From positions 1 to 21,845 of the IMG/VR virus record IMGVR_UViG_3300034062_008862: 21,845 nucleotides of DNA. The stretch is one strand, 5' to 3'. A program made the position numbers and the translations under genes. This document shows, one piece after another, positions 1,742-19,579 of this stretch; within the stretch, counting starts at the first letter, position 1; each line of letters opens with the position of its first letter. This stretch comes from a virus. The notes beneath the pieces are model-generated. The model did no database searches, was not told the DNA's origin, and saw nothing but the letters and a program-made list of their open reading frames with translations.

Positions 1742-2332
1742 ATGGCCGCTCAAGGTGAGCCACAAGAGAGCGGCCCAGCCGTTGACATCCAGGACGTTCA
1801 TGTTGATCCGATCGAGGATCTACGTGGGGCTCCTGGTGAGGAAGATGATGATGGCCAGCCGCTCTGGCCAGCCCAGAAGCAGGCATCAGCCTCGCGGGCA
1901 GGGAGGAAATCCACGGCAGGGGGCTCAGCCCGGCATCCCCGCTGCAGCCAGCCTCCCCGATCCACCAAGGACAAGCCCTTCGCTCCCAGGCCCAGTCGGG
2001 GGGAGGTGGAACGGCGGATCGCGGAGGCCCAGCTGTGGATCGCCCAGCGGCTGCCGCTGATCAGGATTCGGGACAATGCTGCCCAGAGCTGGGGGGTGAC
2101 CAACACCAAGACGGTGAACCGTTACCTCAACCTGGCCCGCGAGCGGATGGTGGAGGAGCTGATCTCCGACCGCCGCCGTCACCAGGCCGAGCAGATCTTC
2201 GCGCTGAATGAATGCGCCCGCCGGGCGATGGACGCGGAGCAATTCTCGGCAGCGGTGGGCGCCTTCCGGGTGATCGCCGAGATTGGCGGCCTGCTCCGGG
2301 CCCCGATCAAGCCGCCGGAGGCAAGGGGCTGA
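1742..2332 (+). CDS. Probable terminase small subunit
   Basis: 196 residues. The small subunit recognises phage DNA and delivers it to the large subunit for packaging. The call rests mostly on position: its stop overlaps the start of the large terminase in a TGATG junction, the normal order. The C-terminal half fits too. Residues 88-135 are helical with a helix-turn-helix-like segment (NAAQSWGVTNTKTVNRYLN), followed by two long helices (136-185) of the kind used for oligomerisation. Residues 1-82 are low-complexity, acidic then Ser/Arg-rich, and look poorly conserved, so the true start may be further in. I find no obvious Shine-Dalgarno before ATG 1742. It could be another small DNA-binding packaging protein, but that is less likely. 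Confidence 0.6.
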   Translation: MAAQGEPQESGPAVDIQDVHVDPIEDLRGAPGEEDDDGQPLWPAQKQASASRAGRKSTAGGSARHPRCSQPPRSTKDKPFAPRPSRGEVERRIAEAQLWIAQRLPLIRIRDNAAQSWGVTNTKTVNRYLNLARERMVEELISDRRRHQAEQIFALNECARRAMDAEQFSAAVGAFRVIAEIGGLLRAPIKPPEARG

Positions 2333-4032
2333 TGGGGCGCATCGCTTCCACCACCAGGGGCATGGCCGCGGCAGCAAGCGATGGAGGCCTGCTGCTTGCT
2401 CCCGCCACCGACCTCTGGGGCGACTGGGGTCTGCTGGCCGTTCCCGATCCCGACCGGGCGACAACGACCCGCCAAGGCCTGCTGTTCCGCGACTTCATCC
2501 GCACCGCCTTTCCGACCTTTCAGTTCCACCGGCTGTCCGAACTCCTGATCGAGCTGTTGCAGCAGGTGGCCGATGGGCAGCTGACGCGCCTGATCGTCTG
2601 CTGTCCTCCGCGCCACGGGAAGAGCCAGTTGGTGTCACGCCTGTTCCCCGCCTACTGGGTGAGCCGGCACCCGGAGCTGTTCTGCGCCATCGCCAGCTAC
2701 TCCGGTGAACTGGCCTATGCCCACAGCCGTGAGGCGCGGCACTACTTCCGCCTCACCGGCCATGCCCTCTCCAAGGACTCTGCGGCCGTGGGCAACTGGC
2801 TCACCCCACAGCGCGGTGGCTGCATCGCGGCCGGGGTGCGGGGACCCTTCACGGGGAAGGGCTACAACCTCGGGATCATCGATGACCCCTACAAGGGTCC
2901 TGAGGATGCCAAGTCGGCCCTGCAGCGGGAGCGACTGATCGACTGGCTCAAGAGCGTCTGGTTCACACGCGCCGAACCGGGCCTCACTGCAGAGGGTGCC
3001 CTGCTGCCAGCGGCGCAGGTGGTGGTGCAGACCCGCTGGGACCACCACGACATGACCGCCTGGCTCCTGGAGCAGGAAACCGAGGAAAACCCGGAGCACT
3101 GGACGGTTCTGAACCTGCCGGCCATCGCTGAGCCCGAGGCAATTTCTATGCAGATTCCGCATACCTGCAAGAAGGTCCACGACTGGCGCCAGCCCGGCGA
3201 GCCGCTCTGCCCGGAGCGGGTGCCGCTGGCGGTGCTGCAGCGCATCCGCACCCGCCTGGGCTCCTATTGGTGGAACGCGCTGTATCAGCAGCGGCCCAGC
3301 CCGGCGGAGGGCCTGCTGTTCCGCAAGGACTGGATTCAGTCGCCGCTACCGATCACCCCCGGCCAGCCCCGGCGCTACGCGCCCTTGGTGCTGAGCTGCG
3401 ACCTGAGCTTCAAGGACGGCAAGGACAACGACGCCTGCGGCTTTGCGCTGCTGGGTCTGCTGGAGCCTCAGCGGCATCCAGCGGTGGAGGCGCGGCGCCA
3501 GGGCTTGACGCTGGCTGCCAATGCCGCCGGAGCCCAAGGAGCGCCGAGGGGTGTGAATGCCACTCACCCCCTTTCTGGTGGCCCAGACCCATGGGCGGAG
3601 CTGCAGATCGAGGCGCTCTGGGCCCACCGGCAGCGGCTGGATCTGCCGGGGGTGATCAAGTTCTTGTTGGCCTCGTTGGCGTCGCTGGAGCGTCAGGGAC
3701 TGCGCCCCAATGCCGTCCTGATTGAGGACGCCGCCAACGGGCCGGCTGTCTGCCAGCTGCTCAGGCGTCAGGTGCCGGGGCTGATCGCCATCCCGCCCAA
3801 GGGCAGCAAGGCTTCCCGTGCCCATGCCGTGGCCCCCTTGGTGGAGGCGGGCCAGGTGCGCTTTGCCCGCAAGGCCAACTCCCTGGTGGAGGAGCTGCTG
3901 GCCTTCTCCCCCCGCGGAGGGGTGGACGACCAGGTGGATGCCTTCTGCCTGGGGGTGCTCTGGATCGAGGCCCAGTTCTGGCGGGGTCGGGGCTACGGCA
4001 GCTCGCCGGTGCCGATGTTGTTTTCCAGGTAA
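2332..4032 (+). CDS. terL: Terminase large subunit (ATPase + nuclease)
   Basis: 566 residues counting from ATG 2332, chosen because it overlaps the upstream stop by one base; an upstream in-frame start at 2212 would run through the small subunit. The motor packages phage DNA into proheads and cuts concatemers. The ATPase domain has Walker A PPRHGKS (92-98) and Walker B LGIIDDP with acidic pair D184-D185. The RNase H-like nuclease domain has its first Asp at 357 (LSCDLSFKDGKDND), the second acidic site in LIED (465-466) and the third in DDQVDAF (532-536). All expected catalytic residues are present. Between the first nuclease strand and the segment DLPGVIKFLL there is an Ala/Gly-rich stretch of about 40 residues (roughly 380-420) that looks like a lineage insertion. 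The length is normal. The PPRHGKS form is typical of the family with the psiM2-type C-terminal domain. Confidence 0.93.
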   Translation: MGRIASTTRGMAAAASDGGLLLAPATDLWGDWGLLAVPDPDRATTTRQGLLFRDFIRTAFPTFQFHRLSELLIELLQQVADGQLTRLIVCCPPRHGKSQLVSRLFPAYWVSRHPELFCAIASYSGELAYAHSREARHYFRLTGHALSKDSAAVGNWLTPQRGGCIAAGVRGPFTGKGYNLGIIDDPYKGPEDAKSALQRERLIDWLKSVWFTRAEPGLTAEGALLPAAQVVVQTRWDHHDMTAWLLEQETEENPEHWTVLNLPAIAEPEAISMQIPHTCKKVHDWRQPGEPLCPERVPLAVLQRIRTRLGSYWWNALYQQRPSPAEGLLFRKDWIQSPLPITPGQPRRYAPLVLSCDLSFKDGKDNDACGFALLGLLEPQRHPAVEARRQGLTLAANAAGAQGAPRGVNATHPLSGGPDPWAELQIEALWAHRQRLDLPGVIKFLLASLASLERQGLRPNAVLIEDAANGPAVCQLLRRQVPGLIAIPPKGSKASRAHAVAPLVEAGQVRFARKANSLVEELLAFSPRGGVDDQVDAFCLGVLWIEAQFWRGRGYGSSPVPMLFSR

Positions 4033-4036
4033 GCCA

Positions 4037-4561
4037 ATGAGCCAATCACTCAATCCGTCCCATTCCCATCGGCCCTACCCCAGGGTTGTCGCTTATCCAC
4101 CCAAGCCACGGCGCCATCGGCCGGTGAACCCTCATGCCGCAGCCAATGCGTTGGCGCTGCAACACCGCGACATCGCCGCCACCGTGGCCGGCAACATCTC
4201 ACGCCGGACTGGTCATCCAAAGGAAGACCTGGAGCAGATCGCCATGCTCGGAATCATCCAGGCTGCGCGCCGCTACTCACCGGAGCGAGGGTCGTTTCGT
4301 CCCTATGCACGTACCTATGCCAATGGGGAGGTGTATCACTACCTGCGGGATAAAGGGTTCTTGATCAAGGTGCCAGCGAGCTGGAGGGAGTTACATGCAA
4401 GAGGCATGCGAATGCAAAGAATGGGAAACTCAATACAAGAAGTTCTCTCTCGTCTAAAGGTAACTCAGGATAAATGGCGAATAATCTCGCGCGCGTGCGG
4501 ACAGAGAGTAGTGTCTATGGAAGAAGACTCGCGGCTTGAACAAGTAGGCAATCGTTCATGA
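4037..4561 (+). CDS. Phage-encoded sigma-70 family factor lacking region 4
   Basis: 174 residues, starting 4 bases after the large terminase. Residues 36-110 match sigma region 2 of the SigB/SigF type, with the characteristic series EDLEQIAMLGIIQAARRYSP, RGSFRPYA, GEVYHYLRDKG. Residues 111-165 look like a shortened region 3 (KVPASWRELHARG, then an LSRLKVTQD helix and VVSMEED). The protein stops where region 4, which contacts the -35 box, would begin. It would bind host core RNA polymerase and direct it to promoters with only a -10-type element, as T4 gp55 does. That comparison is by architecture, not sequence. Base composition falls from GC-rich to nearly balanced at about 4380, inside the gene, and the low-GC cassette follows. 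The missing region 4 may therefore be natural or the result of recombination. Sigma identity is strong; the target promoters are inferred. Confidence 0.85.
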   Translation: MSQSLNPSHSHRPYPRVVAYPPKPRRHRPVNPHAAANALALQHRDIAATVAGNISRRTGHPKEDLEQIAMLGIIQAARRYSPERGSFRPYARTYANGEVYHYLRDKGFLIKVPASWRELHARGMRMQRMGNSIQEVLSRLKVTQDKWRIISRACGQRVVSMEEDSRLEQVGNRS

Positions 4562-4580
4562 TTTCTCATCTTTGATCCTG

Positions 4581-4602
4581 CTGTCACGCGGATCAGCAGA
4601 TT
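4581..4602. repeat. Small inverted repeat after the sigma gene
   Basis: CTGCTG and CAGCAG arms, separated by 10 bases, lie about 20-40 bases past the sigma stop in the gap between two convergent genes. A weak stem-loop is possible. No T run follows, so a terminator role is doubtful. The rest of 4562-4723 shows nothing recognisable. Confidence 0.25.
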
Positions 4603-4723
4603 CTCTGGGCCTTCCACTAGCGTCGTAGGGGCTAGCTGAGCTTGACCTGATTACATCTACAGCTGGCAACGAAGTAATCCGGCGCGGCGTGTAGAGAGAA
4701 GCTGGGATGGGGTCCGACATGAT

Positions 4724-6160
4724 TTAGATCGCGGGTTTGAGATAGAAGTTCCAAAATGTGTTTACTAACATCAAATCCTTCGTCATAACTCTAAAAACGC
4801 AATCAGAAATTTTTTCTCTGAGCTCCAAAGCATGATCGCTCTCAACCAAATCAAACTCCAAGCTCTGCAGTATGATTCTACGCACAAGCTCTGCGCACTT
4901 GTCAATGCTTCGCACCACAAGTACACCATTTGAAACTCCCGTGTCTAGATTGATCTGAATTCCCAGCGGATGGGAATCTCTAAGTGTCCTTGCTCGAGTA
5001 TCAAAATGAGCCTGCATCTTGGCAAAAACAAGACTTTTTAAATCAGCAACATCGACTTGTTCCCTGTTCGAGCACCATTCTCTCACTCTGTGATCTGTCC
5101 ACGCAAGTTCTGGAGCATAGATGCGAAGCTGCTCAAGCAGCAAGCTGGCCTCCCCTTCCGCCGGGGATCTATCTTCATGCAACCCCGCAAAGTGTTGTTT
5201 AAAATATTCATCTGTCACTTCAGGAATATAAGCAACGACAGGCTTTCCTTGGGCAAGTGTTGAGGCTAGCTCAGAGTCTTTACCAAGTGTGTCGCTTTCT
5301 TGGGCAAGATATATTGTGCAGCTTGCGCGCCTTAGCATTAGCGCTTCGGCGAGGCCTTTGTCTATCCTATTTTGGCAATATGCCTGAGTCGGATCGAACC
5401 ATCTTAGCTTAAGCTCGCTGAGAGCATGATGCTGAAAAATTTTAGTTGTTATCCTGTTGATTGCCTTGAACTCATGCCTTTCCCGCATTGACGTAGCCAC
5501 ATAAACGTCAAGATGATCTGATGCTAAATAGGCTTCTTGGTTTCTCTTGGCTGTTTCTACTGCTTGCAATCGCCTCCCTTCGAGTTCAAGCATTTCAGGG
5601 TTACCTGGGTTCGCGCTTAGAGCATCTTTAATCTGTCTCTCTATGAGATACCCAGTCAAATATGTGTCTTTTGAGTCAATCTCGATATGTGGCAGTATCG
5701 GAAGGTGTCGAGATTTAAATTTGTAGTCCGCTATCGGCTCTAGATTGAGAAGAGTTCTGCGCAAGTTGACATCTCTAGACAATATCTTAAAGCCGTACTT
5801 AACATTGCCGAACAGGAGAATCGCGAGCTTTCTGAATCTGTTGACAGCATCGTTGAGCTGCTCGCTCGACTCAAAAGCCAATCCAGGTTCGTACTCTGTC
5901 TTTCCATCTAGCAAATATCGAAAAAACTGACTCGTAATGCGATCAAAGCCAAACAGCAAAAGTAGTTCATTTAGCTGGCTGTACCCGAGCCCCTCCCCCG
6001 GCGCATTAAGCACGGACAAGCCAGGGACAGAAGCGTCAATCTGAGCGCTTTGTCCAGTCAACTTCGAAAGTAGCTCCTTTATTTCCGAGTGATTCACTTG
6101 AGTGCCAACAATGGACCAAGCCTCCATCTTAGTCTGCGCCAAGTCCTGAGTCAAGTTCAA
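4724..6160 (-). CDS. TIR/nucleoside-deoxyribosyltransferase-like protein, candidate anti-phage or exclusion gene
   Basis: 478 residues, reversed and AT-richer than everything around it. The start is TTG 6160, with AGAGG about 10 bases before it; ATG 6127 is the alternative. Residues 1-210 are mainly helical and unrecognised. Residues 216-315 form a Rossmann-like core: LDVYVATSMRERHE, then FDPTQAYCQNRIDKGLAEAL, a strand CTIYLAQESD, and DSELASTLAQGKPVVAYIPE. The Glu at 297 followed by GKPVV matches the catalytic Glu region of nucleoside deoxyribosyltransferases and TIR-like NAD-cleaving effectors. The C-terminal domain (398-478, HPLGIQINLDTGVSNGV onward, ending FWNFYLK) is unknown to me and could be a sensor. 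Proteins of this build are often defence effectors. A solitary reversed cargo gene inside a phage packaging operon suits superinfection exclusion. The fold is moderately sure; activity and role are inferred. Confidence 0.7.
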   Translation of the reverse strand: MNLTQDLAQTKMEAWSIVGTQVNHSEIKELLSKLTGQSAQIDASVPGLSVLNAPGEGLGYSQLNELLLLFGFDRITSQFFRYLLDGKTEYEPGLAFESSEQLNDAVNRFRKLAILLFGNVKYGFKILSRDVNLRRTLLNLEPIADYKFKSRHLPILPHIEIDSKDTYLTGYLIERQIKDALSANPGNPEMLELEGRRLQAVETAKRNQEAYLASDHLDVYVATSMRERHEFKAINRITTKIFQHHALSELKLRWFDPTQAYCQNRIDKGLAEALMLRRASCTIYLAQESDTLGKDSELASTLAQGKPVVAYIPEVTDEYFKQHFAGLHEDRSPAEGEASLLLEQLRIYAPELAWTDHRVREWCSNREQVDVADLKSLVFAKMQAHFDTRARTLRDSHPLGIQINLDTGVSNGVLVVRSIDKCAELVRRIILQSLEFDLVESDHALELREKISDCVFRVMTKDLMLVNTFWNFYLKPAI

Positions 6161-6313
6161 GTATCAATAGCCTCTGAATCTGAGTTCATTGGTTTGCGAA
6201 TTATTGCCTTGACCCCTGTCCCGTTAGGGTCTGGGTGGAAGGCATGGCGTTCAAGAACTGGCTTGTATTCATGCTCAGGCGAGATATAAGCATGATTGCT
6301 GCTGATTTGAGTT

Positions 6314-6347
6314 GACATGGCAATAGGTTTCAGCATCCCTCCATGTC
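6314..6347 (+). promoter_or_regulatory. Late-gene element copy 1 (TGGCAATAGG within a 7-bp inverted repeat)
   Basis: TGGCAATAGG (6318-6327) is the core shared with copies at 9623, 12677 and 18280. Here the downstream GCRGTGA part is absent. The core is instead framed by GACATGG (6314-6320) and CCATGTC (6341-6347), a perfect 7-bp inverted repeat. The proposed portal start (TTG 6348) follows immediately. The element lies between the reversed low-GC gene and the portal. The remaining 6161-6313 is AT-rich and shows nothing I can name. Its role, promoter or 5'-UTR structure, is inferred from the set of four. Confidence 0.55.
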
Positions 6348-7943
6348 TTGCCGCATCTCTCAGGCCCTTCGAAAACCACGCCTAGGTCCATTTGGAGCCC
6401 TCACCACTTGCTAAGTAGCTTGCGCCCATCGCTTCATCTCACCGCCGACTGCTGGGCCCTTCTCGCCGCCCAGGACGGCAGCAGCCGCAAGGAGCACTAC
6501 CTCCCCAAGGGTGAACGGGAGCCTGACACTGCGTACCGCAAGCGCCTGGATGCCGCCCGCCCCTCGGGCTTTTTCCGCGATGCCCTGCGCACCTACGCCG
6601 GCATGCTCAGCCGGGGCAGCTGGATCAGCCTCCCGGCCAGCCTGAGCTCGGTGCTCACCGACGTGGACGGTCGTGGCACGGACCTGGGAGTCTTCCTGGC
6701 GGCGGCCGACCTGCTGGTGCTGCGGGACGGCGCCGCTCTGGTGCTGGTGCTGCCGCCCGAGCACAGCTGGCCCAGCGAGGGGGACCGTCAGGAGGCCCTG
6801 CGCCGCGGCGATCGCCTCTCCCTTCCCCGGCTGCAGCTGGTTTCCCGAGCCAACTGCCTGAACTGGGAGTTGCCTGTCTCCCACGGGCTCCCTGGCCGGA
6901 TCATCTGGCGGGAACCTGTGAATCGCCCCATCAGCGCCGAGCCTCCTGGCAGCGAGGGGGCAGTCACCGAGCAGATCAACGCCCTCCTGGGGGATCCCGA
7001 CGCCCCTGATCACTGGCACTACCGCAGTCTGGAGCTGCTTACCTCTGGCGATGCCGTCGTCGGCCTGCAGCTGGCCCACCACCCGGTCTGTGCTGACCCG
7101 CAGGCCATGACGGGCTGGCGCTGTGACGAGCCGGTGGTCACCACCTATGAGGGCATCCATCGCCTGCCGGCCTGCTGGTACACCTCCGATGGCTCGGCCT
7201 TCGGGGAAGGGGACCTGCCGCACCTGGGCCTTGCACACCAGTATCTGAACCACTTCCGCTGCAAGAGCGAATACGAGGAGCTGCTCTCCCGCACCGCTTT
7301 GCCAGTGGGGGTCCGCAAGGGGATGGTGGACGCGATGGGCAACAGCCAGGCCGGCCCGGTGGTGCTGGGGCCGAACACCTGCATGGACCTTCCCTCGGAC
7401 GCCTCCTTCGAGTTCGTGGAGATCCGGGCCCGCTCGCTGGCGGAGCACCGCGCCTGGCTGCAGATCCTCGACGACACGATGCGCCGCGATGCACTCATCC
7501 CGTCTCAGAACCGCGGAGCCGCCCGGACCGAGATGGAGATCAGCCTCACCGCTTCCCAGAGCTATGCGCTGCTGCAGGCCATGGCGATCCAGAAGGCTTC
7601 ACTGTTCTCCACGCTCCTTCAGCACTGGTGTGCTCTCACCGGTGAACCCCTCGATTCCGGTGCCGGCCTGCAGGTGACTGTGAGCCCGCTCACCCCGCCC
7701 ATCCAACCCCAGCCCCAGGTGAAGGAGTGGATCGAGCTCTTTGACAAGGGGGTGATCAGCCGGGAAGAGCTGCGCCACCAGCTGGCCCTGGCCACGGCCA
7801 ATGCGATCAGCAGCCCGACCCTCGATGACAGCCCGGCAACCAGGGCGGGCGAGGGGAGCCGGAACCCAGAGCCCAGGGCTCCCGGGAGTTCGGCGCCGGT
7901 GCCCCTCAGGCAAGAGGAGTCAGCCGCGCCTGCAGCCGCATGA
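6348..7943 (+). CDS. Portal protein (DUF4055-like)
   Basis: 531 residues from TTG 6348. The true start could be TTG 6408 or 6420, since the first 25 residues look non-conserved and no ATG is available. The portal forms the ring at the capsid vertex through which DNA is packaged. The N-terminal region from about residue 31 (CWALLAAQDGSSRKEHYLP, AYRKRLDAARPSGFFRDALR, TYAGMLSRGSWISLP) matches the pattern of DUF4055 portal-like proteins. The middle has the alternating strand/helix clamp region, and the C-terminal third has the expected helical stretch (MEISLTASQSYALLQAMAIQ, then VKEWIELFDKGVISREELR). The tail after residue 490 is low-complexity. It is second after the terminase apart from the sigma gene and the inserted cassette, the usual order. 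It overlaps the next gene by ATGA. Confidence 0.8.
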   Translation: MPHLSGPSKTTPRSIWSPHHLLSSLRPSLHLTADCWALLAAQDGSSRKEHYLPKGEREPDTAYRKRLDAARPSGFFRDALRTYAGMLSRGSWISLPASLSSVLTDVDGRGTDLGVFLAAADLLVLRDGAALVLVLPPEHSWPSEGDRQEALRRGDRLSLPRLQLVSRANCLNWELPVSHGLPGRIIWREPVNRPISAEPPGSEGAVTEQINALLGDPDAPDHWHYRSLELLTSGDAVVGLQLAHHPVCADPQAMTGWRCDEPVVTTYEGIHRLPACWYTSDGSAFGEGDLPHLGLAHQYLNHFRCKSEYEELLSRTALPVGVRKGMVDAMGNSQAGPVVLGPNTCMDLPSDASFEFVEIRARSLAEHRAWLQILDDTMRRDALIPSQNRGAARTEMEISLTASQSYALLQAMAIQKASLFSTLLQHWCALTGEPLDSGAGLQVTVSPLTPPIQPQPQVKEWIELFDKGVISREELRHQLALATANAISSPTLDDSPATRAGEGSRNPEPRAPGSSAPVPLRQEESAAPAAA

Positions 7944-9622: not shown

Positions 9623-9662
9623 TGGCAATAGGCGGTGAGCACAGCCCGGATGGGGTGCTCAC
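9623..9662 (+). promoter_or_regulatory. Late-gene element copy 2 (16-base motif + hairpin)
   Basis: TGGCAATAGGCGGTGA at 9623-9638 is identical over 16 bases to the copy at 12677. Its last bases start a hairpin: GTGAGCAC (9635-9642) pairs perfectly with GTGCTCAC (9655-9662), with an inner CCC/GGG (9645-9647/9652-9654). The scaffold-like gene starts at 9685, 23 bases after the stem, without a Shine-Dalgarno. The element sits between a reversed small gene and the scaffold gene. The base-level repeat is certain; the function is inferred. Confidence 0.65.
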
Positions 9663-9684
9663 TCCACGACAGCCGCGATGGGTC

Positions 9685-10581
9685 ATGGCCACTGCCACTG
9701 CTTCCTCCACCTCCAGCACCGCCGCCGCCAGCGGCCAGGGTGCTGAAGACAATTACGCCGCCACCGGCCAGCCGGGTGAGACCACGACTACTGGTGGTCC
9801 CACGGGCGACCCCAACAGCACCGGCAGCCAGGGCGGTTCTGCCGTCAGCGGTGGCGACAGCTCTGGCACTGCTGCCTCCGAGGGCGGTGCTCCCCTGCTG
9901 GACGACAGCCGCCTCACCGAACCCCTGCGGGCTGAGCGGCGCAAGAGCAACCAGCTCGAAAAAGAGATCCGCACCCTGCGCCAGCAGCTGAACCGCTTCT
10001 CCGAGATCAACCCCGAGGAGTACGCCCGCCTGCAGGAGGCCGAACGCCAGAAGCAGATCCTCGAGCAGCAGATGGAACTGCGCGAACGCCAGATGGAGGA
10101 GGCCTCCGCCCAGAAGGTGGCCGCCGTCGCCGCCGAACGCGACGAGGCCAAGCAGCAGATCCTCCAGCTCCGCAAGGACCGCCTGCTGGAGCGGGCCTTC
10201 TCCCAGGCCGAGGGCCGCACTGGTGGGGATGCCAGGGGCACGTTCTTCGACATCTTCAAGGGGCAGCTGGGCACCTGCTTCCGTCTCAGCACCGGCGGGG
10301 ACGGCAAGGACGTGCTCGAACCGCTCGACTCCCAGGGCAAACCCCTGCTCGGCGATGACGGCCGCCCGATGACCACCACAGAGTTCCTCGATCAGATGCG
10401 CGTGCACCCCGTCTATGGCTTCCTGTTCCAGCAGCGGGGTCCGGCCGGCATGCAGGCCGCCGGTGGGCTGACGGTGTCGGGCATCGGCAGCAACGGCGAG
10501 CCGATCAATCCCCAGGCCATGAGCGCCTCTGAGCTCTACCGGGCGTCCTTCGCGGTGAATGGCCGCGGGGCTCGACGCTGA
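9685..10581 (+). CDS. Probable capsid scaffold / assembly protein
   Basis: 298 residues from ATG 9685, chosen because it follows the repeated element; in-frame starts at 9565 and 9622 would put the element inside the gene. Scaffolds shape the prohead and leave before DNA enters. Residues 1-75 are low-complexity Ser/Thr/Gly/Ala. Residues 76-175 form a long charged coiled coil (PLRAERRKSNQLEKEIRTLR, then Glu/Gln/Arg-rich heptads through ILQLRKDRLLERAF). The C-terminal third is compact (GTFFDIFKGQLGTCFRLSTG, FLDQMRVHPVYGFLFQQRG) and ends in a basic tail (NGRGARR), as scaffold proteins often do to grip the capsid. It lies upstream of the capsid gene, but with one small gene and a reversed cassette between. 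Identification is by architecture and position only. Confidence 0.65.
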   Translation: MATATASSTSSTAAASGQGAEDNYAATGQPGETTTTGGPTGDPNSTGSQGGSAVSGGDSSGTAASEGGAPLLDDSRLTEPLRAERRKSNQLEKEIRTLRQQLNRFSEINPEEYARLQEAERQKQILEQQMELRERQMEEASAQKVAAVAAERDEAKQQILQLRKDRLLERAFSQAEGRTGGDARGTFFDIFKGQLGTCFRLSTGGDGKDVLEPLDSQGKPLLGDDGRPMTTTEFLDQMRVHPVYGFLFQQRGPAGMQAAGGLTVSGIGSNGEPINPQAMSASELYRASFAVNGRGARR

Positions 10582-10977: not shown

Positions 10978-11167
10978 CGCGCGAGTCGATCAACCCCGCA
11001 ACTGCCCGGAGCCTGGAAAACACCGCCGGCCAAACGATCAACACCTCAAAAGGGGAGAAAGCAACACGAAAAAAATCGAAAATTCTCCTCGTATTTTGCG
11101 TTTCAAAATCAGCTCCCTGTAACTCTTTGGAGAGCCCTGTAGCTCCTCATAGAAGAACGCAGACTCG

Positions 11168-11181
11168 GGGGGTATTCCCCC
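11168..11181 (+). terminator. GC hairpin between convergent genes, possible terminator
   Basis: GGGGG (11168-11172) and CCCCC (11177-11181) close a TATT loop, followed on the plus strand by TGTTT. This is the gap between the plus-strand head gene (ends 10977) and the reversed DoxX gene (ends 11243), where a terminator is expected. The T run is short, so it would be a weak one. Upstream, 11040-11110 is an AT-rich patch with a 6-bp GGAGAA/TTCTCC repeat. Confidence 0.3.
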
Positions 11182-11242
11182 TGTTTCCAGGAGCGGCGCA
11201 GGGTGCCTCGGAAATTTTTCAGGTTCTGGGAAATCCCTCGTC

Positions 11243-11617
11243 TCAGTCCCTGCTGTCCTGATCGGCCACCAGCAGCAGGCCGCCCATGATCGCCAGGTTC
11301 TTGAACAGCTGAATCCGCTCCATCTTGTCGGCCACATCGCCGTGGAACAGCAGGGTGGTGGGCACCAGGAACACCAGCAACAGCACCGCTCCTAGTCGGG
11401 CTTTCCAGCCGCTGATCACCAGGGCTGAACCCACCGCCATCAGGGCCATCGCCGCCACCAGCAGCACCGGCGCCAGCGGCAGTCCCTTGGCCGCAATGGC
11501 GCCGGCCACCCCGGCAAAGCCCGTCAGCTTGCCGATCACGGCATGGATGAACACCAGGCACAGCAACACCCGGGCGATGCGGTTCAGCAACGAGGGCTGG
11601 TGGCTCTGCTGGCTCAT
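11243..11617 (-). CDS. DoxX family membrane protein
   Basis: 124 residues from ATG 11617; ATG 11641 is a possible longer start. DoxX proteins are small four-helix inner-membrane proteins, in some bacteria linked to redox stress and in others of unknown role. The sequence shows four hydrophobic segments at about 14-30 (ARVLLCLVFIHAVIGKLTGF), 48-68, 74-92 (AVLLLVFLVPTTLLFH) and 103-117. It also has the family signature of a Gly-Lys-Leu turn after helix 1 and FKNLAIMGGLLL in helix 4. The length is typical. It is reversed inside the phage head operon, an odd place for a cell-type membrane protein, which suggests a captured host gene (moron) that could alter the lysogen's membrane or redox state. 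The family call is firm; the role here is unknown. Confidence 0.85.
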   Translation of the reverse strand: MSQQSHQPSLLNRIARVLLCLVFIHAVIGKLTGFAGVAGAIAAKGLPLAPVLLVAAMALMAVGSALVISGWKARLGAVLLLVFLVPTTLLFHGDVADKMERIQLFKNLAIMGGLLLVADQDSRD

Positions 11618-11746
11618 GGGGGAAAGGTCTGCTGCGGGCATTGTGTGGCCGGTGGCCAGGGTCCGGGTGTTGCTCGCACGATGGGCAGCGAAATGCCCCG
11701 GGGGCCCGCGGGCCCACCGGGGCAAGGGGCCGGAGCCCCTGGCGGC

Positions 11747-11959
11747 TCACAGCACCGCCACGGTGCCAAGCCGCTTGGCCTGCAGCTTTCGGGCCAGCTG
11801 ATGGGCCAGCTGGGCCGGAATGAAGCGGGGCTTCTTCACGGGGCGACCGCGGCGGCCATAGAAGACCACATGGCGCTCAGCATCGGGCGCCTTGATCCCG
11901 TCGGGATAGACGAACACCGCCAGCTGGCGGATCTCGCAGCGGGGAGAGAAGGAGGCCAT
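11747..11959 (-). CDS. Small hypothetical protein
   Basis: 70 residues from ATG 11959; a longer in-frame start at 12037 adds an N-terminus that looks non-coding. Not recognised. The residues read like a folded small protein: a central strand (QLAVFVYPDGIKAPDAERHV), then a basic turn (FYGRRGRPVKKPRF) and an amphipathic C-terminal helix (PAQLAHQLARKLQAKRLGTV). The net charge is positive, so nucleic acid binding is possible but unproven. It lies 129 bases upstream of the DoxX gene on the same strand and may share its transcript. No Shine-Dalgarno is evident. Confidence 0.5.
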   Translation of the reverse strand: MASFSPRCEIRQLAVFVYPDGIKAPDAERHVVFYGRRGRPVKKPRFIPAQLAHQLARKLQAKRLGTVAVL

Positions 11960-12288
11960 CACGAGGAAGGCGAGGGACACCCGCGTCAGGCCTCGGCTGT
12001 ATCGACCCGGCAGAACTTGATGGAAAACCCCATCCATAGGTTTGCAGGAGCTGGATCAGGTCCGGGGTGAGACGGCCGGGGCAGCGGGCTCCCCTTCTTC
12101 CCCTCGCCGACCGTGATTGCTTCCGCCTCCGCCAGTGCTCCACTCCCGCCAGCTCGGTCGTTGGGTCGGCTCGCGGTGGATCGGTGGGCTGCAAGGTCCG
12201 CTGGGCCTCCTGGGCTGTCTGGCCGGTGGTCGCGACCAACAGGAAGGCAGGGCCCTGGGGGAGCCCCGCCGGCTGCTGGCCCTGGCCC
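11960..12288. other. 329-base stretch without a convincing gene
   Basis: Open frames exist on both strands here because of the high GC, but their translations are rich in Arg, Pro, Gly and Ser without protein-like patterns. I see no tRNA, repeat or clear promoter. It may hold the promoter for the 70-residue gene to its left, or decayed coding sequence. Confidence 0.4.
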
Positions 12289-12474
12289 TCAGAAGGGCAG
12301 CAGTGCCTCCAGCTCCGGATCGACCGGCATGGCCGGGGCGGCTGCTTGCTGCTCGAACAGCATCTGGGCCGCCAGCTCAGCCAGCCGCGGCCAGCGCTCG
12401 CTGCAGAAGGCCAGATCTTCCAGCACCTGCCAGGAGAACTGCTGCAGCTGAGCTTTGCGGGACAGAGGGGCCAT
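12289..12474 (-). CDS. Small hypothetical protein with good ribosome site
   Basis: 61 residues from ATG 12474, with GGAG seven bases before the start on the minus strand, the best ribosome site among the reversed genes. The protein is a compact amphipathic helix pair (KAQLQQFSWQVLEDLAFCSE, then RWPRLAELAAQMLFEQQ) followed by an acidic Pro-rich tail (VDPELEALLPF). I do not recognise it. The size, helix pair and reversed position fit a small regulator or accessory protein, but no motif supports a specific role. It may begin a reversed unit with the 70-residue and DoxX genes, although 329 bases separate it from the next. Confidence 0.5.
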   Translation of the reverse strand: MAPLSRKAQLQQFSWQVLEDLAFCSERWPRLAELAAQMLFEQQAAAPAMPVDPELEALLPF

Positions 12475-12505
12475 GGGATGGCTCCGCGTAGGACCCCTCA
12501 GCCGG

Positions 12506-12603
12506 CGGGGGGCGGGTCAAGGGCCCGTCCACCACAACGATGCGGAGCACAGCGCAGCCAACGTCCCAGCGGCGGGCTCGGTTCACCCTTGACGCGCCCC
12601 CCG
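12506..12603. repeat. 18-bp inverted repeat around a 62-base spacer
   Basis: CGGGGGGCGGGTCAAGGG (12506-12523) and CCCTTGACGCGCCCCCCG (12586-12603) are inverted copies matching at 17 of 18 bases. Both arms contain TTGAC pointing outward, one toward the reversed gene at 12474 and one toward the capsid gene. No matching -10 boxes are found at 16-18 bases. It could be a binding site pair, a long stem-loop, or the ends of a small inserted element. Confidence 0.75.
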
Positions 12604-12676
12604 ACCATGAGGAGGGCCGGAGCGGAGCCCGTTCAGGAGCTGGTGGCTGCATCGCCGCCGCGCTGCTCACTCCCCA

Positions 12677-12728
12677 TGGCAATAGGCGGTGACGTGATCT
12701 GGGGCCGGGCCCCGGGAGTGCAGCACCG
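12677..12728 (+). promoter_or_regulatory. Late-gene element copy 3 (16-base motif + nested hairpins) before capsid
   Basis: TGGCAATAGGCGGTGA at 12677-12692 is identical to the copy at 9623. CGGTG (12687-12691) can pair with CACCG (12724-12728), which touches the capsid start codon at 12729. Inside, GGGGC (12701-12705) pairs with GCCCC (12709-12713). A GGGAG that might act as ribosome site (12714-12718) lies between the inner and outer stems. The corresponding outer stem in copy 4 is CAGTG/CACTG, a compensated change. Structure is inferred from base pairing by eye. Confidence 0.7.
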
Positions 12729-13646
12729 ATGGGCCTCACCCTGATCGAGGCAGCCAAGTACGAGACCCGCCTGGAGCACCTGGCGGTGATCAAGACCTTC
12801 GCTGAGGGCGAACTGCTCAGCTGGCTGCCGTTCATGAACATCGCTGGCGGCGGCCTCTTCTATTCCGTCGAGAAGGAGCTCCCCTCGGTGGGCTTCCGGG
12901 CGGTGAACGAGGGCTACAAGCAGAGCTATGGCGTCGTCGACCCCCAATCCGAGGCCGTGCACCTCTTTGGGGGTGACGTGGATGTGGACCGCTCGATCGT
13001 CGACCTGCAGGGCCCAGAAGCCCGTGCTGCCCAGACCGAGATGAAGGTGCGCTCGATGCGGCTGACGCTGGAGGCGGCCCTGATCAACGGTGATGCCACC
13101 GCCAGCCAGGGCCGGGGCTTTGACGGCTTGGCCCGGCGCCTCTCCCCTGGTGCTGAGATGGCGCTCAACAACGGTGGCGGGGCGCTCGATTTCGACAAGC
13201 TCGATGAGCTGATCGACTCGGTCAACTCTTACGGCGGCCGGAAGTACCTGGTGATGAGCAAGGCGATGCGCCGCCAGCTCAATGCCCTTGCCCGCCAGAC
13301 CGTCGGCCAAGGCGTTTACAACGTGAGCACCAACAACCTGGGGGTGATGGTGCATCACTACCAGGAGTGCCAGATCCTCACCGTCGACCGCGACGCCCAG
13401 GGCCTGGAGGTGCTGGGTTACGGGGAAGCGGGCGGCACCAGCTCGATCTACTGCTGCACCTTCGGGGACCAGGCGGTGACCGGCCTGCAGGGGCCGTTCC
13501 AGGGCCGCTACGGGATTTCGGTCCGGGACCTCGGCGAAGTGCCCGACGCCCCGGTGTTCCGCACCCGGATCGATTGGTACGTGGGCTTTGGCGTCATGCA
13601 CCCCCGCGCCGCTGGCCGGCTGCATTCCATCGCTCCGATCGCTTGA
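12729..13646 (+). CDS. Major capsid protein (HK97 fold)
   Basis: 305 residues. It builds the icosahedral shell. The N-terminus matches the pattern of HK97-fold phage capsid proteins that lack a delta domain: a leading helix (LTLIEAAKYETRLEHLAVIK), a WLPFMNIAGG segment, then the E-loop region with GGLFYSVEKELPSVGFRAVN and GYKQSYGVVDP. The spine helix is in TEMKVRSMRLTLEAALINGD, followed by GRGFDGLARR and the P/A domain with KYLVMSKAMRRQLNALAR. The C-terminus has the DWYVGFGVMHPRAAGRLHSI strand, typical of this group. The length is normal. The start codon abuts a base-paired element rather than a standard Shine-Dalgarno. It is separated from the scaffold by the reversed DoxX cassette. Confidence 0.88.
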   Translation: MGLTLIEAAKYETRLEHLAVIKTFAEGELLSWLPFMNIAGGGLFYSVEKELPSVGFRAVNEGYKQSYGVVDPQSEAVHLFGGDVDVDRSIVDLQGPEARAAQTEMKVRSMRLTLEAALINGDATASQGRGFDGLARRLSPGAEMALNNGGGALDFDKLDELIDSVNSYGGRKYLVMSKAMRRQLNALARQTVGQGVYNVSTNNLGVMVHHYQECQILTVDRDAQGLEVLGYGEAGGTSSIYCCTFGDQAVTGLQGPFQGRYGISVRDLGEVPDAPVFRTRIDWYVGFGVMHPRAAGRLHSIAPIA

Positions 13647-18279: not shown

Positions 18280-18327
18280 TGGCAATAGGCAGTGATCTGC
18301 CCGGCTGCAAGGCCGGGCCCGCACTGC
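18280..18327 (+). promoter_or_regulatory. Late-gene element copy 4 (16-base motif + nested hairpins) before the fibre gene
   Basis: TGGCAATAGGCAGTGA at 18280-18295 differs by one base from copies 2 and 3. GCAGTG (18289-18294) pairs with CACTGC (18322-18327). Inside, GCCCGGC (18299-18305) pairs perfectly with GCCGGGC (18312-18318) around a 6-base loop. The fibre start is ATG 18335, with no Shine-Dalgarno. Unlike the other copies, no reversed gene precedes it. The G-to-A change in the motif is matched by C-to-T in the opposite arm. Confidence 0.7.
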
Positions 18328-18334
18328 TCCTGCC

Positions 18335-19579
18335 ATGGGTTCCTGGAAATCCTCCGGTTCGATCCGCGGTCCTGTCGGACCGGCTGGACCTCAGGGTTCA
18401 CCGGGTGTGCAGGGGCCCCAGGGACCGGCTGGACCGCAGGGGCCTCAGGGGCCATCGGGCTTGCAGGGGCCTGAGGGCCCGGCCGGCGTCGCCGGACCCG
18501 CTGGTCCGACGGGCCCCCAGGGCATCCAGGGCCCGGCGGGGATCGGCATCAACTTCAAGGGTCAGGTGGCGACGGTCGCCAACCTGCCGGCCAATGCGGC
18601 CCAGGGCGACGCCTATCTGGTGCAGGCCGACGACTCCCTGCGGGTGTGGGACACGGGCACCAACAGCTGGGTGAACGGCGGTTCGATCCAGGGTCCCCAG
18701 GGTCCGGCCGGTGTGGCCGGCCCGGCGGGCGCGACTGGTGCCCAGGGCCCCGCTGGCCCGCAGGGACCGCAGGGCATCCAGGGTCCGGCCGGCGCCGATG
18801 GGGCGATCGGCCCCCGGGGAACGGGCTGGTTCACCGGCTCCGGTGCGCCGCCGGCAACGATCGCCGGGGCGGTGGATGGTGATCTCTATCTCGATCTGGT
18901 CAGCGGCACCGTCTACGTGCTCGGCCCGATCCGGGTGGCCGATCTGCCTGCGATCGGCAGTGAGTTCCAGGGCGGCTTCTATGCCGGCCTGATCAGCCAC
19001 ACCGCCAATGGCGTGGCCACCCATGCCTTGATCATTGCGCCCAAGACCGCCGGCTCGCTGCTGAACGTGGCCTGGAAGAGCGCCAACACCGCCAGCACCG
19101 GCACCACGAGCGTCTTCGACGGGTGGGCGAACAGCGAGGCGATGAACAACGCCAGCCATCCGGCGGCCCAGTTCTGCTGCTCGCTCACCATCGGCGGCTA
19201 CGACGACTGGTACCTGCCGGCTGCCCAGGAGTGGGACATCCTCTACCGCTCCTTCAAGCCGGAGGCGACTGCTGCTGGCACCTATTCCGGGGCGGGTTAT
19301 GGCGCCAACCCCTATGCGGTGCCCCAAGGCGGCAACTACACCGACAGCAATCCGGCCCTCACTTCGGTGCTCGCCTTCCGGGCTGGTGGGGCGGAGACGC
19401 TCAAGCACTTCGACGAGAACTACGGCGACGATCCCTTCTTCCACTGGACCTCCACCCAGGCCGCCAGTGGCACCGCCTATCTGCGGATGACCTACATGGG
19501 GGATCAATACGCCGAGGCCAAGACGAGCGCTTCCATCACCCAGGTGCGAGCGATCCGCCGCATCCAGGTGCTGCCGTAA
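18335..19579 (+). CDS. Collagen-like tail fibre with DUF1566/lectin-like tip
   Basis: 414 residues. Two collagen-like Gly-X-Y blocks (about 11-69 and 119-161, GPQGPAGPQ-type) trimerise the shaft. A small domain lies between them ([20 protein letters not shown] to SWVNGG), a module typical of phage and virus fibres. After the second block comes a short beta unit ([20 protein letters not shown]). The C-terminal 210 residues form a globular tip; its last 125 ([49 protein letters not shown]) match the DUF1566/Lcl-C and C-type-lectin-like pattern. The tip probably binds the host surface. It is the only gene of the appendage block with its own copy of the TGGCAATAGG element. Confidence 0.85.

Follow-up and report, generated by a model that had tools for sequence, protein, structure and literature searches.

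The window analysed here, a stretch of viral DNA of 21,845 nucleotides, encodes at 4037..4561 (plus strand) a SigF-type sigma factor of 174 residues, in which region 2 is followed by a short region 3 and region 4 is missing; very probably, this is a late sigma factor of SigF descent that would direct the host polymerase to -10-only promoters. The domain content of the protein, the linkage of its gene to that of the large terminase (terL), the positions of a single box before structural genes, the lack of a conserved -35 element and the covariation of a leader hairpin are established at the level of sequence, and the proposal is built on them. How cyanosiphoviruses control their late genes is largely uncharted, the regulon of the group 3 sigma factor of PSS2 having been left unspecified in 2009, and the analysis offers a concrete sigma factor, box and gene list for elements of freshwater picocyanobacteria and, for cultured marine phages, a box that parallels theirs. 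Moreover, a sigma factor that has lost -35 recognition in nature would inform how -10-only promoters work, and orthogonal expression in cyanobacteria is a possible use.

The sigma factor and its relatives

Sigma70_r2 is the sole Pfam match of the open reading frame (E 1.1e-12) and covers residues 42-107, corresponding to 4160..4357 on the plus strand; Sigma70_r4 was absent even at E 10 when the window protein and its relatives (ten members) were searched. The best curated model is the cyanobacterial SigF PRK07408 (7.9e-19), the alignment to which runs from position 42 to 163 of the 258-position profile and ends there, and the SigB/SigF/SigG model TIGR02980 is matched as well (9.9e-15), both with scores under the curated cut-off for full-length proteins. 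In the AlphaFold2 model, built with 32 family members as input (mean pLDDT 84), four region-2 helices (residues 32-105) are followed by three region-3-like helices (residues 114-155; 4376..4501, plus strand), which form the final ordered stretch, the chain being predicted as disordered beyond residue 155. The Foldseek matches of this model are sigma factors. Pfam, PRK07408 and AlphaFold2 thus agree with the preliminary description, which had read the protein as ending before region 4, after a region 2 of SigB/SigF type and a short region 3. With regard to group 3 of the sigma-70 family (SigB/SigF/SigG type), region 2 is present and region 4, responsible for -35 recognition, is not, so that by sequence and model the protein is to be regarded as SigF-derived, not as a complete SigF.

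Scans for homologues first recovered 9 viral and 45 genomic sequences, the latter on contigs almost all labelled Cyanobium, Synechococcus or cyanobacterium. A common end point was found in the 53 homologues besides the window's own, save two broken copies, and about 75 related sigma genes, almost all of them intact, share the truncated form. Among close relatives region 2 is nearly invariant in the alignments (A1 and A2), and the DNA 3' of the stop codon is unrelated from locus to locus, because cargo genes start there. The shared end point and the unrelated DNA after the stop rule out both a frameshift and a contig artefact as the cause of the missing region 4; by these comparisons the truncation is taken as ancestral and not as an accident. 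In terL relatives at about 38-45% identity a sigma-like reading frame is kept at the equivalent site, with a longer C-terminus in which Pfam region 4 was not found. In the distant terL-linked frames (L127-L136, L142), the last 100 or so residues have no family match and are perhaps a degenerate region 4.

Linkage to the terminase

The sigma gene lies directly after terL (2332..4032, plus strand; phrog_38, 1.2e-76, and synteny), which is preceded by a terS-like gene for the small terminase (1742..2332, plus strand), whose role is inferred from its conserved position and homologues, family matches not being strong. The conserved order is terS, terL, sigma, variable cargo, portal, scaffold, variable cargo and capsid. 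In a terL-based scan of viral relatives, run independently of the sigma factor, each relative that had an identity of 57% or more and enough sequence beyond terL carried the sigma gene directly 3' of it. Among 300 genomes of the host family, 73 terL matches with an intact C-terminal end were obtained. In 71 of these, the sigma gene follows on the same strand after 53-285 nt. Of the two exceptions, one begins 5 nt away from the end of its contig, and the other probably sits at a contig end as well. At identities of about 36% or less the sigma gene is absent, L142 excepted, and most such terminase relatives have neither sigma nor box.

The preliminary description had named relatives with the motif and without the sigma gene as one observation that would speak against it. 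When these were sought, close terL relatives with room downstream were all found to carry the sigma gene, and a small number of contigs had the motif and no sigma match, all of which were fragments or chance matches: G005, G007 and G008, which match the capsid-leader pattern, have no homologous genes and were discarded as chance, and G006 and G009 are true relatives on contigs that do not cover the interval between terL and portal. A scan of viral contigs with a badly chosen scaffold pattern returned one contig only. The co-occurrence of sigma and box was seen within one related family, in which shared descent may explain both being kept.

The box before late genes

Exact copies of TGGCAATAGG occur four times on the plus strand of the window and never on the minus strand, first-order Markov sequences giving 0.01 on average and at most 1. 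They precede the portal gene (box 6318..6327; gene 6348..7943; DUF4055, phrog_145), the head scaffolding gene (box 9623..9632; gene 9688..10581; phrog_206), the GP7/SU10-like major capsid gene (box 12677..12686; gene 12729..13646; phrog_212) and a collagen-repeat tail or fibre-like gene recognised from its translation and relatives (box 18280..18289; gene 18335..19579), all on the plus strand. The head genes had earlier been called lambda-like, a description which the GP7/SU10-type capsid and the DUF4055 portal do not support. With two mismatches allowed, 16 sites were found in the window for 15.4 expected, a chance level; the signal is carried only by the exact sites and by the relatives.

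In the relatives, a strict form of the box, [TC]GGCAA[TC]AG, was sought in the 250 nt 5' of genes, with a background of 0.014 per 250-nt stretch. It was present before scaffold in 45 of 49 loci, before capsid in 20 of 21 and before the collagen-like gene in 8 of 9, and was found before none of 65 terS, 76 sigma and 58 lysM (LysM/HTH) genes; in a separate check, the 450 nt 5' of terS had no box in any of 67 loci. The portal boxes are degenerate (strict form in 28/64 loci, loose core in 52/64), with a looser version YGGYAANRG, and in a few loci, such as L046, no box was found there, L018 having a loose look-alike only; this degeneracy counts against the proposal. Matches of the loose core before g7940 (41/55) were rejected, as they come from a conserved GGCAAGAGGAG resembling a ribosome-binding site. 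Upstream of the capsid box, at about 60-100 nt, CCCTTGAGGCGCCCCCCGACCATGAGGAGGGCCGGAGCGGAG is conserved and followed by a variable spacer (window 12580-12640; also L003, L004, L007, L018, L026, L033 and L036).

The recurrence of a box before late genes, as first described, was thus retained, and its sequence had to be amended: the conserved form is TGGCAATAG with G or C as the next base, and it varies between lineages. TGGCAATAG belongs to the window-type and SynAce01-type sigma lineages, TGGCAACAG to the lineage L112-L122 and CGGCAA[TC]AG to the lineages L101-L111 and L123-L125, and TGGCAATAG and CGGCAACAG are likewise boxes of different sigma lineages; the box variants go with the sigma lineages.

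When 52 non-redundant contexts were aligned on the box, no position from -46 to -2 exceeded 0.25 bit, so that no -35 accompanies the single box, as had been supposed. Since the contexts were chosen by pattern, the information inside the box stems partly from this selection, which leaves the absent -35 unaffected. The start of the box, GGCAA, resembles GGTAA, which Synechocystis SigF reads at -12 in promoters that also need TAGGC at -32 (PMC2758279). Natural GGTAA versions of the box are found before portal in L009 and L055. Of this two-part promoter only the -12-like GGCAA is present, and the loss of region 4 and the loss of the -32 element fit each other.

The linkage of sigma and terL, the restriction of boxes to late genes and the lineage variants support the earlier reading of sigma and box as a two-part late system, which may be outlined as follows. 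The phage sigma factor behind terL would descend from a cyanobacterial SigF through loss of region 4, and would use its region 2 to bind the host core RNA polymerase and to read the single -10/-12-type box TGGCAATAG, with core GGYAA and no -35. Because no box precedes the terS-terL-sigma cluster, this would need another, probably earlier, promoter, and the sigma product would then turn on the structural genes for portal, scaffold, major capsid and collagen-like tail.

A different division of labour, to which a low but real probability is given, is that the protein supplies region 2 only and that a second protein provides -35 binding or contact with a clamp, split sigma factors being exemplified by the RsoA/sigma-O pair of Bacillus. 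The phage does encode uncharacterised proteins that could in principle be such a partner, and T4 gp55 needs the coactivator gp33 and the sliding clamp gp45 for efficient late transcription. A -35-binding partner would, however, have no conserved upstream DNA to read, an objection that does not touch the clamp-type version, in which the activator requires no upstream element.

Hairpins in the leaders

Immediately downstream of the scaffold box, at the predicted 5' end of the transcript, a hairpin (GTGAGCAC ... GTGCTCAC; 9635..9662, plus strand) begins 3-7 nt 3' of the box. In 27 sequences, 8 of its 11 pairs undergo compensatory change, and 91.8% of cells are paired, against 41-49% when the partner is slid; its fold has -14 kcal/mol. 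The case rests on covariation, as folding of single sequences lends the hairpins little support (z -1.8 to +0.3). A G+C-rich hairpin in the capsid-gene leader (12698..12716, plus strand) does not fold below shuffles and is supported by an alignment of 13 leaders, and the collagen-like gene also has a hairpin in its leader (18299..18318, plus strand; -21.9 kcal/mol, z -1.8). Rfam gave no match. The loop of the scaffold hairpin, CAGCCCGGATGGGG, is echoed by CAGCCGCGATGGGTCATGG shortly downstream, near the start codon (window 9643-9695).

The covarying hairpin makes it very likely that some of the leader functions as RNA. By analogy with phiEco32, scaffold transcripts would start at the conserved hairpin or a few bases from it, and the hairpin may protect the RNA or set translation. 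If the true start sites were further upstream, the box would lie inside the transcript and could have an RNA role, and box and hairpin could then form one RNA element acting on translation or stability, with the sigma factor acting elsewhere. The covariation of a hairpin right beside the box speaks for such an element; this reading is nevertheless improbable, for the window's portal leader has a box and no clear hairpin on folding, conservation begins sharply at the box, and the box both matches the SigF -12 core and varies with the sigma lineage.

Comparison with known systems

T4 late promoters consist of only a -10-type box. The T4 factor gp55 and the window protein are alike as phage specificity factors, a parallel drawn by function: gp55 does not figure in the structural and family matches listed for the window sigma, and no gp33 or gp45 partners were identified. 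A closer parallel is gp36 of phiEco32, a phage sigma factor without region-4 homology; the promoters that it uses upstream of middle and late genes have a single element, tAATGTAtA, and transcription starts 6-8 bp downstream of this box (PMC8948821). The likeness, drawn by function, lies in the missing region 4 and the single-element late promoters; the window differs in its host and box, in a SigF-like sigma factor behind terL and in leaders that combine box and hairpin. The window protein, lacking region 4 and associated with single-element promoters before late genes, shares these two traits with the functional class of late sigma factors known from phiEco32 gp36 and T4 gp55, from which its SigF origin distinguishes it.

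The group 3 SigF of Synechocystis is alike in being of the type of the best-matching model and in the similarity between GGTAA and GGCAA, whereas it has region 4 and a -32 TAGGC, and the phage protein and its promoters have neither. The proximity of the two -12 elements would also be expected if a SigF-like factor of the host read the box and the phage sigma served other promoters; this has little probability, as the TAGGC-like -32 element required by host SigF is missing here and sigma and box occur together.

The cultured cyanosiphoviruses PSS2, S-CBS2 and S-CRES3 likewise have a SigF-type gene directly after terL, an arrangement shared by the window, and Pfam region 4 was not found in their sigma factors either. 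These differ from the window sigma in a longer C-terminus and low sequence identity, that of PSS2 having about 35% over 100 residues. A dedicated regulon was proposed for the PSS2 group 3 sigma factor by its authors, without a motif (PMC2784084), and no motif for it was found in the literature searched. The box as first described, GGCAATAG, was not found at late genes of S-CBS2 or PSS2 (3 plus and 2 minus sites, and 2 and 2, respectively), which have other motifs. S-CBS2 and S-CRES3 resemble the window in having a single box before late genes and differ in its sequence, GGMATHCTA (GG[AC]AT[ACT]CTA), which occurs 16 and 11 times, respectively, on the plus strand and never on the minus strand; 24 of the 27 sites are no more than 60 nt away from the start of a gene, the usual distance being 27-33 nt, and a strong upstream -35 element was not found at them. 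The pattern was picked after k-mer enrichment 5' of genes in the same genomes, so that its counts are descriptive, and strand bias and narrow spacing played no part in the choice. This box before the late genes of S-CBS2 and S-CRES3 (L172-L175) is apparently unreported in the literature searched. In PSS2 a motif GGTAGATTG/GGTAGACTG was seen, which partly reflects a triplicated segment.

Cargo and element copies

Two cargo hotspots, one after the sigma gene (window 4562-6317) and one before the capsid gene (10980-12600), differ in gene content in nearly every relative (L002-L056); in the window they include a minus-strand reading frame (4724-6160) with no match in Pfam, PHROG or NCBIfam and a DoxX-like one (11243-11725). 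No tRNA was found in the window. In many loci the cargo before portal and capsid ends just 5' of the box, which could suggest a recombination or insertion site at the right edge of the cargo, a very unlikely reading, given that the left edge has no box (0/18 within 300 nt after the sigma stop) and that boxes, always oriented with transcription, are found before scaffold and tail genes as well.

Some picocyanobacterial genomes hold many copies of the element: Cyanobium Cruz-8D1 has about 10 sigma genes, each copy of the element with different cargo (L012-L021, L048), and a MAG from Lake Pavin has many copies, also differing in cargo (L024, L025, L027, L032). In the complete SynAce01 genome (L057, L059, L058, L061), a distance of 35-50 kb separates the box-bearing capsid-tail modules from the single sigma gene, and a degraded portal-scaffold copy is about 190 kb away. 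This counts against the proposal: the capsid modules being far from the only sigma gene, either this would act in trans or the modules would be silent. A broader picture, put forward tentatively and with odds against it, is that of a radiation of cyanobacterial phages and prophages with a region-4-less SigF late switch hard-wired behind terL, -12-only GG boxes that diverged along with the sigma factor, a portable box-hairpin module and, in hosts with many copies, action in trans on the capsid modules of other elements. Among window-type relatives, the capsid protein is 93-100% identical, compared with 67-83% for the sigma factor, which reflects either unusually strong conservation or recombination.
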